The notes under the pieces were generated by a model, which searched no databases, had not been told where the DNA came from, and worked only from the letters and a program-made list of their open reading frames with translations. Of a stretch of DNA of 60,512 nt, positions 1 through 45,475 are shown in pieces; position 1 is the first letter of the stretch; each line of letters begins with the position of its first letter. Made by a program: the position numbers and the translations under genes. Location of the stretch: assembly GCA_903839975.1 (NCBI GenBank), contig CAIMEH010000027.1:1-60512 (forward strand), read 5' to 3'. Source of the DNA: an uncultured Candidatus Berkelbacteria bacterium. Its GTDB lineage: Bacteria > Patescibacteriota > UBA1384 > 2-12-FULL-50-11.

Positions 1-74
1 AGAAGGTCCCAAGGGTTTGGCTGTTCGCCAATTAAAAGGGTACGCGAGCTGGGTTCAGAACGTCGCGAGACAGT
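1..74 (+). rRNA. 23S rRNA, exon 1 (3' part of domain V, partial)
   Basis: The segment matches the peptidyl-transferase region of 23S rRNA. It has the A-loop hairpin (ggctgttcgcc) and then the stretch around E. coli 2572-2604 ending in gagacagt. The gene runs off the left edge. Aligned by eye, position 74 corresponds to E. coli U2604, after which the homology stops abruptly and resumes at 918. The exon ends in T, as expected for a group I 5' splice site. Confidence 0.95.
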
Positions 75-917
75 AGAATGTGCTGTCTAACGCAGCTAGT
101 TTTAGAACTAGTTGCTCTAACTGCTTGAACAACAGTTAGCTAAATTTGGCTAAATGCTGGAAACTCTGAGTATCTTGTACTACTTGTGTTACGATGGTCC
201 TAATGACCATCTTTCGCAGTGAAAATGTACCAAGTGCAGACAATCAGCAGGAAAGGCCTCAAGGCATTAATCCATGGTATATTTCGGGATTTGTTGACGG
301 CGAAGGAACGTTTCACGTTTCTTTTGCCAGACGCACAGATCTGCCCAAAAAGTGGGCAATAATTCCGGAATTCCACGTATCGCAAGACTTTGCTCGGTCG
401 TCTGTGCTCGAAGAGATTAAAACTTCCTTTGATTGCGGGCAGATTAAGCAAAATCACCGCGGTAAATCTAACGATTCAACCTACGTTTTCGTAGTGCGAA
501 ATCGCCAAGATCTGATAAATAAAATAATTCCATTTTTCGACCGATATCCGATGCGCTCATCAAAGCAGAAAGACTTTTTAGTCTTTGCCCAGATTGTGGC
601 GCTGATGGAGAATGGTTATCACCGCTCGGAAAAGGGCTTCAGGGAAATTACCTGGAAAGCTTTTCAAATGAACGGTGGTGGCAAGTATCGTAAACGAAAG
701 ATGGCGGAAATTCTTGAGGAATCCTCAGAGACTATATGCCAGAATGTGCAGGATTAAAACACGCACATAAGATATAGTCCGGACTGCATGGCGACATGCA
801 GACCCCACAGAAATGTTGGGGCGCCACGAAACTAATTTTGTGGTTTTCTCGGCCGTTGCCGAGACGAAAGGTTACAATCACGTAGCAGTGATCATGTGCC
901 TGGTAAGTAACAGATCG
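75..917 (+). mobile_element. Group I intron in 23S rRNA (between E. coli 2604 and 2605)
   Basis: The 843-nt insertion splits conserved 23S sequence. Exon bases 69-74 (gacagt) pair perfectly with intron bases 82-87 (gctgtc), giving a P1 helix with the diagnostic U.G wobble (74 with 82) at the 5' splice site. The intron ends in G (917), the expected omega-G. A P7-like pairing is visible between gactata (730-736) and tatagtc (773-779), and 769-780 carries the typical group I motif aagatatagtcc. It encodes a LAGLIDADG endonuclease. The 5' strand of P7 lies inside the ORF, so coding and ribozyme sequence overlap. Subclass was not assigned. Confidence 0.93.
194..757 (+). CDS. LAGLIDADG homing endonuclease (intron-encoded)
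   Basis: The 187-residue protein carries one LAGLIDADG-type motif, GFVDGEGTF at residues 32-40, preceded by WYIS. This is typical of single-motif enzymes that act as homodimers to cut the intronless 23S allele and start intron homing. The rest has the alternating basic and hydrophobic composition of this family (LAGLIDADG_1/2). It lies wholly inside the intron and ends 160 nt before the 3' splice site, across the R element of the ribozyme core. ATG at 194 gives the longest reading; an ATG at 203 is possible. The frame is open and the motif acidic residues are present, so it looks intact. No Shine-Dalgarno sequence is obvious. Target specificity is inferred only from location. Confidence 0.9.
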   Translation: MVLMTIFRSENVPSADNQQERPQGINPWYISGFVDGEGTFHVSFARRTDLPKKWAIIPEFHVSQDFARSSVLEEIKTSFDCGQIKQNHRGKSNDSTYVFVVRNRQDLINKIIPFFDRYPMRSSKQKDFLVFAQIVALMENGYHRSEKGFREITWKAFQMNGGGKYRKRKMAEILEESSETICQNVQD

Positions 918-1190
<273 letters not shown>

Positions 1191-1330
1191 ATTACTTTCT
1201 CTTTTTTGCCAACCTACGTGTTCGCACGTAGATTTCTAGGCAGAAAAGAGAAGACAAAAAATGCTGAGGAAGAGATATCTTCAACTGCGGCTTGGAACAA
1301 CAAAATTTACTTAGAGATAAGAGGTGAATC

Positions 1331-7357: not shown

Positions 7358-7507
7358 TTGCAAAGGGTAGGGCTTCAGAGTCTTGAAGGCCAGCCCTTCC
7401 CTCTGCACTCCCACCTGGCCGTCGCCGCCACAGGCGTAAAGAGAAAATCCTGGCAAAATTTCCAACATTGAACTGTCGGCCAGTAGAAATTTTTTGGATT
7501 TTCAATT
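7358..7507 (-). repeat. Family I structured repeat, copy 1 (inverted)
   Basis: Read on the minus strand it matches the copies at 8337 and 45,313: an outer inverted repeat gaaaatcc/ggattttc around a conserved core (cagttcaatgttggaaattt), then cgcctgtggcggcg and a second hairpin. The second hairpin stem here is gcaaaggg..agggctt with its complement, while its sequence differs from the other copies. With the tail it spans about 150 nt between glyQS and a small gene. The rest of 7152-7585 holds copy A of family II, a terminator, and no gene that I can see. Confidence 0.82.
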
Positions 7508-7585
7508 CTATAAAGCCAAACTCTTGAAATCTGCAGAGAGAGAGTTAGATGGGGTTAATCACGAGTATTAGTTAAGGAGGCTTAA

Positions 7586-8310: not shown

Positions 8311-8336
8311 TGGTCTAAGCCTGGTTTTTACCAACC

Positions 8337-8495
8337 GAAAATCCCAGAAATTTCCGTTGGCCGTCAGTTCAATGTTGGAAATTTTGCCAGGATTTTCACC
8401 ACGCCCCTGCGGGAAGCGTGCAGGGTAGGGAGTGTGAGGGTGTAGGGGCTGCCTCGCAATTAAGCCCCTCACCCTCACAAAAAGGGTGCTTGCAC
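8337..8495 (+). repeat. Family I structured repeat, copy 2
   Basis: It begins gaaaatcccagaaatttc and continues with ggccgtcagttcaatgttgg, sharing the core with copies 1 and 3, and ends aagggtgcttgcaca. The second hairpin has the stem gtgagggtg..ggggct with exact complement aagcccc..caccctcac. Its loop (cctcgcaatta) resembles the loops of the other copies although the stem sequence does not. Confidence 0.85.
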
Positions 8496-8526
8496 ATGAA
8501 TCAATGCCTTAATCTCCAAAACATTT

Positions 8527-8556
8527 GATAGCGACGTAACGGAGTGAGGAGCTTTC
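8527..8556 (+). repeat. Family III short repeat (gcgacgtaacg type)
   Basis: The unit gatagcgacgtaacggagtg, followed by aggagc, matches insertions found in the broken 5S (about 1880-1918) and in the broken tRNA-Trp (38,404-38,450). Here it stands alone in the spacer ahead of mraZ. Confidence 0.65.
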
Positions 8557-38076: not shown

Positions 38077-38102
38077 AAAAGCGGCCAACTGGCCGCTTTT
38101 CT
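38077..38102 (+). terminator. Terminator after rpmG
   Basis: The hairpin aaaagcggcc/ggccgctttt with loop aact ends in ttttc. It is strong and almost symmetric. Confidence 0.9.
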
Positions 38103-38153
38103 TGTCGACTGGTTAGGTAATAATTGGTAAACTATATGAGTTAGTTAACTTAT

Positions 38154-38269
38154 AGGGGCGTAGCTCAGTGGGCCGAAGCGGTAACGAGAACTAAACTGCT
38201 TTAGTTCGAGTCGCTGAGGCGGGCGAAAGTATGTTGCATACTTGCAACACTTAAGTCCCGGAAGAGCAT
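38154..38269 (+). pseudogene. 5' fragment of tRNA-Trp interrupted in the D-loop
   Basis: 38,154-38,171 equals the first 18 nt of the intact tRNA-Trp (aggggcgtagctcagtgg). A 91-nt insert follows that includes hairpins gaactaaa/tttagttc and aagtat/atactt. Then agagcat (38,263-38,269) resumes the D-arm before similarity ends. It therefore lacks the anticodon and the 3' half. Confidence 0.8.
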
Positions 38270-38289
38270 ATTAATTTAGTGACAAATGC

Positions 38290-38361
38290 AGGGGCGTAGC
38301 TCAGTGGTAGAGCATCGGTCTCCAAAACCGAGTGTCGCAGGTTCGATCCCTGTCGCCCCTG
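38290..38361 (+). tRNA. tRNA-Trp (CCA)
   Basis: The acceptor is aggggcg/cgcccct, the anticodon stem is tcggt/accga with loop ctccaaa (anticodon CCA), the T-arm is gcaggttcgatccctgt, and the discriminator is G. The acceptor is extended outside the gene by a perfect 10-nt inverted repeat (tgacaaatgc/gcatttgtca), so the precursor can form a 17-bp stem. Confidence 0.93.
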
Positions 38362-38377
38362 CATTTGTCATTCAATA

Positions 38378-38468
38378 GTCTCCAAAACCGTAGGTCGCAG
38401 GTTAGATAGCGACGTAGCGAAGTGGCGGAGCTATCCGGAACGAAGTGAAGGATCCCTGTCGCCCCTGC
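38378..38468 (+). pseudogene. 3' fragment of tRNA-Trp interrupted in the T-loop
   Basis: 38,378-38,403 matches the anticodon loop through ggtt of the T-loop of tRNA-Trp. A 47-nt insert (38,404-38,450) carries the family III unit gatagcgacgtagcg with gatagc/gctatc ends. Then gatccctgtcgcccctgc (38,451-38,468) completes the T-arm and acceptor. Confidence 0.82.
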
Positions 38469-38477
38469 AAAAAGAAA

Positions 38478-38506
38478 GTCGCCCTATTTGGGCGTTTTTC
38501 TTTTTA
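38478..38506 (+). terminator. Terminator after the tRNA-Trp locus
   Basis: The hairpin cgccc/gggcg with loop tattt is followed by tttttc and more T. Confidence 0.9.
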
Positions 38507-38518
38507 CTCCCTGTCTTG

Positions 38519-38556
38519 TTGACAGTCCGTATTGCCGCCAAGTACAGTAAATATAT
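38519..38556 (+). promoter_or_regulatory. Promoter of the pilus operon
   Basis: TTGACA (38,519-38,524) and a TACAGT box (38,543-38,548, spacer 18) precede pilN. The 15-mer gtacagtaaatatat (38,542-38,556) recurs exactly at 45,515-45,529 before pilD, suggesting a shared control element. Confidence 0.6.
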
Positions 38557-45237: not shown

Positions 45238-45312
45238 AAATTAGTCAAAGACAAAATAATTAAGGGGGCTGCTGTTGCAGCCTCTTTGATGTTGTTCGAA
45301 TATTTTAAAATC

Positions 45313-45475
45313 GAAAATCCCAAAAATTTCTATTGGCCGTCAGTTCAATGTTGGAAATTTTGCCAGGATTTTCACAATACGCCTGTGGCGGCGTGCGGGG
45401 GTACGGGTCGCAAGGGCCTAGGGGGTCGCCTCAAGACTAGACCCCCTGGCCTTTGCAGAAAGGGTGCTTGCACAG
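45313..45475 (+). repeat. Family I structured repeat, copy 3
   Basis: It begins gaaaatcccaaaaatttc, carries the shared core cagttcaatgttggaaattt, then cgcctgtggcggcg. A second hairpin has stem aagggcc..agggggtc paired to gaccccct..ggcctt, and the copy ends aagggtgcttgcaca. The spacer 45,238-45,527 contains nothing else but the pilD promoter. Confidence 0.85.

Follow-up and report, generated by a model that had tools for sequence, protein, structure and literature searches.

Palindromic repeats of the REP/BIME type are moved by RAYT (Y1) transposases, and the introns of tRNA genes are of group I or of the archaeal type. RtT RNA was first found in the tyrT operon of Escherichia coli (Bosl and Kersten 1991, as cited in PMC4986893), RtT RNAs are reported to be released from tRNA transcripts (PMC4986893), and rtT-like attenuators were reported as members of the BIMEs (PMC2965389). 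Tyrosine integrases acting at tRNA genes use a geometry of stem arms and loop (PMC1762012, PMC4383910). The literature searched, a partial coverage, held no paper on nested tRNA genes in CPR genomes and none reporting 5' parts, a nested intact tRNA or the three-way-junction element described below.

Here we present a tRNA-Trp locus from a stretch of 60,512 nucleotides (the window), which belongs to a Berkelbacteria-like CPR genome (G000, a 0.68-Mb MAG of 34 contigs, about 90% complete). The locus consists of a tRNA gene nested within another, split copy of itself (Table 1). A sequence-only reading of the window had described an intact tRNA-Trp gene between two split parts, the 5' one interrupted in the D-loop by 91 nt and the 3' one in the T-loop, and had noted a perfect 10-nt inverted repeat that lengthens the acceptor helix of the intact tRNA to 17 bp; the coordinates hold and the repeat was verified in the sequence. 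The 18-nt copy of the tRNA 5' end is located 118 nt upstream of the intact gene and the exact copy of the 3' end, with its hairpin insert in the T-loop, downstream of it (38378-38469). As fragments and intact gene are only 15-118 nt apart in the window, no integrase gene lies between them. The variable loop of the outer 3' part (38378..38407) is GTAGG, as in the intact tRNA-Trp of the related genome G003. An Rfam search of window positions 38100-38520 with E values up to 10 gave no match to RtT (RF00391), and no group I intron (Intron_gpI) was detected by Rfam search in the insert region.

Table 1. Features of the nested tRNA-Trp locus, with positions in the window
Feature	Position	Strand	Remarks
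Outer tRNA-Trp 5' part	38154..38171	+	AGGGGCGTAGCTCAGTGG; acceptor 5' strand and D-stem 5' strand; identical to 38290-38307
D-loop insert, three-way-junction structured element	38172..38262	+	91 nt
Outer D-arm, 3' side	38263..38269	+	AGAGCAT; pairs in the consensus fold with GCTC of the outer D-stem
Inverted repeat, left arm, clamping the intact tRNA	38280..38289	+	perfectly complementary to 38361-38370
Intact tRNA-Trp(CCA)	38290..38362	+	ARAGORN; RF00005, 70.5 bits
Inverted repeat, right arm	38361..38370	+	partner of 38280-38289
Outer tRNA-Trp 3' part, first piece	38378..38407	+	anticodon loop to T-stem 5' strand; 87% copy of 38318-38347
T-loop insert	38408..38450	+	43 nt; hairpins with GCGACGTAGCGAAGTG; GAT on either side (3-nt direct repeat)
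Outer tRNA-Trp 3' part, second piece	38451..38469	+	T-stem 3' and acceptor 3' strands; identical to 38345-38363
Intrinsic terminator	38480..38505	+	3' of the outer tRNA-Trp 3' part

The full tRNA-Trp nest occurs in G000 and G003. Since G003 is an independent genome of another genus and has the same architecture at its tRNA-Trp gene, an assembly error, which the sequence-only reading had named as a possible undoing of its interpretation, is ruled out. The G003 locus carries the D-loop element, an inverted repeat of the same design in other letters, and a 3' part likewise split in the T-loop. In G001 the intact tRNA-Trp gene is directly followed by a terminator similar to 38480..38505 and then by a 3' part; no fragments were found at the tRNA-Trp locus of G002, G005 and G006.

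The neighbourhoods of nearly all tRNA genes in six genomes of the family were surveyed for fragments of tRNA ends on the same strand within 300 nt. Fragments with nested polarity, i.e. 5' parts upstream and 3' parts downstream, flank 92 of 249 tRNA genes (12/40, 11/38, 15/44, 17/37, 13/44 and 24/46 in the individual genomes); the corresponding figures are 4/45 for a CPR sample and 1/36 for E. coli K-12, where the sole case, lysV, is the RtT of Rfam (RF00391). The nested set numbers 133 (52 upstream 5' parts, 81 downstream 3' parts); the opposite arrangement was seen 4 times, and 7 fragments lie on the other strand. This polarity of 133 vs 4, the exact 18-mer copies of both tRNA ends and the covariation controls given below rule out chance similarity. 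Breakpoints are situated in the D-, anticodon- or T-loop, mostly in the D- and T-loops, since 33 of 46 5' parts end at position 16-21 and 57 of 68 3' parts measure 15-18 nt. Direct repeats at the insertion points measure 0 to 4 nt, GCGAAGCG-like motifs were seen in 24 of the 68 3' inserts vs 2 of 153 background flanks, and the outer tRNA copies are frequently damaged. Working tRNA genes of this lineage are often enclosed by halves of a broken copy with invaded loops, so that its tRNA genes probably serve as repeated landing sites. In the leaders of tRNA-Leu and tRNA-Ser genes of the six genomes, a hairpin composed of the first 13-16 nt of the tRNA, a CTCCCTnnnnGGTTGA-like loop and an antisense strand recurs across genera.

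On balance we favour, with modest confidence, a repeated insertion of hairpin units, among them tRNA cassettes, into tRNA-gene loops, the inner copy remaining functional. Alternatively, the fragments could be scars of integration by the tyrosine integrases of small integrative elements. Such enzymes recombine in the T-, anticodon- or D-loop; the incoming element rebuilds the tRNA end, and the piece that it displaces stays at its far side. Most of these elements would since have shrunk to 40-150 bp. Displaced 3' fragments that start in the T-loop are a recognised mark of tDNA islands (PMC4383910), phage Ms6 recombines in the T-loop (PMC1762012), and the fragments described here are likewise tRNA ends displaced as direct repeats with the breakpoint in a loop. 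At tRNA-Arg(TCG) and tRNA-Gly(GCC) of G000 a terminator-like hairpin follows both the intact gene and the fragment, and at many loci the 3' fragment stands alone, past a terminator; such 3'-only fragments fit integrase scars or RtT-type repeats better than nesting. We nevertheless regard integration scars as an unlikely general explanation: the inserts are without genes, no fragment at kilobase distance was found in the one-contig genome G001 (144 kb of which read N), and one integrase event yields neither paired 5' and 3' parts around an intact gene nor stacked 5' halves.

The order of events under recurrent loop insertion can be followed at tRNA-Ile(GAU). When joined, the outer halves of the nested tRNA-Ile(GAU) in G001 equal the ordinary tRNA-Ile(GAU) of G006, except that four nucleotides, GATA, are duplicated where the insertion entered the anticodon loop. 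G006 also contains the same nest, with inserts in the outer D-loop and T-loop that are both lacking in G001. Because the outer loops are empty in G001 and filled in G006, nesting preceded the loop inserts: a tRNA entered the anticodon loop of the resident, and small hairpins entered the outer D- and T-loops afterwards. The inner tRNA and the resident differ solely by three base pairs, located in the acceptor and T stems. The idea that divergence of the outer stems served to prevent cross-pairing with the inner tRNA is weakened, because at this locus the outer stem has the resident sequence and the inner one is altered.

A tRNA-Ile with the anticodon UAU is rare in bacteria. It is present in genomes of this family and is their most consistently nested tRNA: five of the six genomes have the nest, which lies at about anticodon position 35/36. 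Upstream of the intact tRNA-Ile(UAU) gene of G003 three 5' halves are stacked, each ending with CTTA in the anticodon loop. At tRNA-Val(GAC) on contig 5 of G000 (L002/L012) the outer 5' part has the acceptor sequence GCGCTCA, like tRNA-Val(GAC) of G003 and unlike the present intact gene, which suggests that the tRNA-Val(GAC) gene of G000 may have been replaced.

Neutral tandem partial duplication of tRNA genes, decorated later by unrelated repeats, has a counterpart in the RtT locus of E. coli, which repeats the tRNA 3' end plus terminator as in a plain tandem duplication. It accounts neither for the polarity of the fragments nor for loop-specific breakpoints, nor for the fact that in several genera the insertion at anticodon position 35/36 is clean, and we consider it highly improbable. 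The sequence-only reading had also proposed remnants of a tandem array invaded by units; this is an incomplete account, as strictly nested fragments are not predicted by random array decay.

An inverted repeat of at least 8 bp flanks 9 of 20 nested loci, a partly hand-picked set, vs 3 of 153 unflanked genes and 0.6% of shuffled sequences. Its letters vary between genomes with the pairing kept. Shuffling the repeat lowered the predicted pairing of the inner acceptor from 0.99 to 0.80 at the tRNA-Trp locus of the window, and from 1.00 to 0.55 and from 0.99 to 0.34 at two other loci. The repeat helped predicted inner folding at three of seven loci; the effect was absent at the tRNA-Ile(UAU) loci and reversed at tRNA-Ile(GAU) of G001. 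Judged by these folding models, the inverted repeat may prevent pairing between the inner tRNA and the outer strands.

A copy of the D-loop insert (38172-38262), 80% identical, lies 5' of tRNA-Val on a different contig of G000 (E 3e-18). In relatives the element occurs upstream of tRNA-Ala, tRNA-Trp and tRNA-Pro, between the D-loop GG and the 3' side of the D-stem of tRNA-like sequences, it precedes tRNA-Ile in G005, and it lies within the D-loop of a near-complete second tRNA-Gln (L097). Two broken copies of tRNA-Pro (L027, L098) contain the element in their anticodon loops, a repeated intergenic palindrome (L101) contains it in its loop, and further copies of the element stand alone outside tRNA copies (L020, L021, L025, L028, L029). 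Matches were obtained in Berkelbacteria, Uhrbacteria and further CPR genomes, the phylum-wide count being a lower bound with 10 candidates per genome scored; a tRNA-Ser locus of Zambryskibacteria (L030) has only the central hairpin in common with the element. An alignment of 12 sequences folds into a three-way junction in which 26 of 35 pairs are changed on both sides somewhere; 95% of the cells are paired vs 29-42% in the control with partners slid. The D-loop insert matched none of the Rfam families, which excludes a known RNA family, and it belongs to a covarying structured family absent from Rfam. The exact core pattern of the element is not present in IMG/VR, and a viral source was rejected on this basis.

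These distributions bear out the earlier suggestion that the inserts prefer tRNA-like stem-loops: copies of tRNA-Trp, -Val, -Ala, -Pro, -Ile and -Gln, in different genera, carry the element at one common place in the D-loop, it also lies in the two tRNA-Pro anticodon loops and the palindrome loop, and filled and empty loops can be compared at tRNA-Ile(GAU). The worry that the inserts are unrelated to repeats elsewhere is dispelled for the D-loop insert. The T-loop insert had been said to carry a unit of a repeat family termed III, which is partly right: positions 38402-38424 weakly resemble window positions 8524-8546 (E 0.01, whole genome) and 1874-1896. Intergenic repeats of about 80-90 nt with 78-90% identity, in both orientations and unrelated to the tRNA inserts, are found at 8333-8412, 45309-45388 and 7423-7513.

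The segment 1874-1896 is part of an rRNA locus of the window. Downstream of an intact 5S rRNA (1732-1849) lies a broken 3' copy (93% over 95 nt; region 1732-2014) with a GCGACGTAACGCAGTG unit in loop C; the segment, a relative of the tRNA-Trp T-loop insert, is the insert in this copy. Loop insertion is not confined to tRNA, the same phenomenon being seen at 5S rRNA. Window positions 1-1200 comprise the 3' end of the 23S rRNA with an insertion of about 850 nt, which contains a sub-threshold match to a group I intron (34.4 bits) and an open stretch.

In the favoured sequence of events, the tRNA genes of the family would be repeated targets in whose loops small hairpin-forming units land. One type of unit would be a tRNA gene itself, usually clamped by the short inverted repeat, which would land in the anticodon loop of the resident or just 5' of the anticodon arm. 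The incoming tRNA would take over the resident's function and leave it split into an upstream 5' and a downstream 3' part; such insertions would be tolerated because one intact tRNA copy remains. The disabled outer copy would afterwards gather non-coding units in its D- and T-loops, including the mobile three-way-junction element. By analogy with tyrosine integrases, insertion would be site-specific and enzyme-driven, with the stem arms as binding sites and the loop as crossover, and the locus would form a single transcript from which the inner tRNA matures. Against recurrent loop insertion, the inverted repeats lack the sequence conservation of transposon ends; the varying length of the direct repeats (0 to 4 nt) also counts against it. 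A Y1/RAYT transposase was rejected as the mover: PF01797 is absent from the five examined carriers of units or fragments (G000, about 90% complete, G001, G002, G003 and G188). A bolder version, that tRNA genes of this lineage are mobile self-nesting cassettes which, clamped by the inverted repeat, enter the anticodon loop of the resident and replace it, sometimes repeatedly, the outer copy being kept as a folded RNA scaffold that hosts a new structured RNA family, is put forward only tentatively.

Simple loop insertion does not explain fragments that are young or kept identical. In a search biased to fragments that resemble their own tRNA, and hence favouring recent or conserved copies, 133 fragments matched the present tRNA of their own genome and 22 more that of an ortholog; given this excess, many fragments are young or have been kept identical. 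The flanking parts could instead be functional RNA elements like RtT of E. coli, i.e. hairpins in leader and trailer which copy the ends of the tRNA and either influence how the pre-tRNA folds or is processed, or are set free as small RNAs. Such a role agrees with fragments that track their own tRNA, and with isotypes flanked in common across genera beyond expectation (p=0.0002 for 5' parts, p=0.02 for 3' parts). The tRNA-Leu 5' copies are located in a conserved leader hairpin, whole loci are predicted to fold with a closed outer acceptor stem and far more stably than shuffles (z -4.6 and -7.8), and the lysV case is itself RtT, the RNAs of this type being reportedly released from tRNA transcripts (PMC4986893). 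On the other hand, fragments are patchily present within one genus (G001 vs G006), several 3' parts lie past an intrinsic terminator, and the detection bias itself favours apparent tracking, so that we give a functional role of the flanking parts little credence.

If recurrent loop insertion holds, the family would offer a dated and countable record of essential single-copy tRNA genes that were invaded and replaced with their function retained, and what cuts and joins the loops of tRNA genes becomes directly testable. A structured element family is added beyond the holdings of Rfam, and the RtT oddity of E. coli is linked to a pattern touching more than one third of the tRNA genes in one bacterial lineage. 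Prediction of tRNA genes in CPR genomes should reckon with many partial copies.

Among known systems, RtT (RF00391) of E. coli follows a tRNA and its terminator with a reverse complement of the T-arm, GCGAAGCGAG-rich hairpins and the tRNA 3' end, copied exactly from the T-loop on; many 3' parts in the family genomes have the same anatomy, but RtT lacks 5' parts, a nested intact tRNA with inverted repeat and a three-way-junction element. The islands of tyrosine integrases (Islander, PMC4383910) share the loop breakpoints, one regenerated intact gene and a displaced fragment, whereas the inserts described here are gene-free and 40-150 nt long, 5' parts lie upstream and both halves surround one intact gene. 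REP/BIME repeats resemble the units as small hairpins inserted between genes and differ in their mover, as a Y1 transposase was not found in five carrier genomes, that of the window included. Like tRNA introns, the cassettes are inserted at the anticodon loop; here, however, no group I match was found in the region, the outer copies are often damaged, and the insert holds a whole tRNA.
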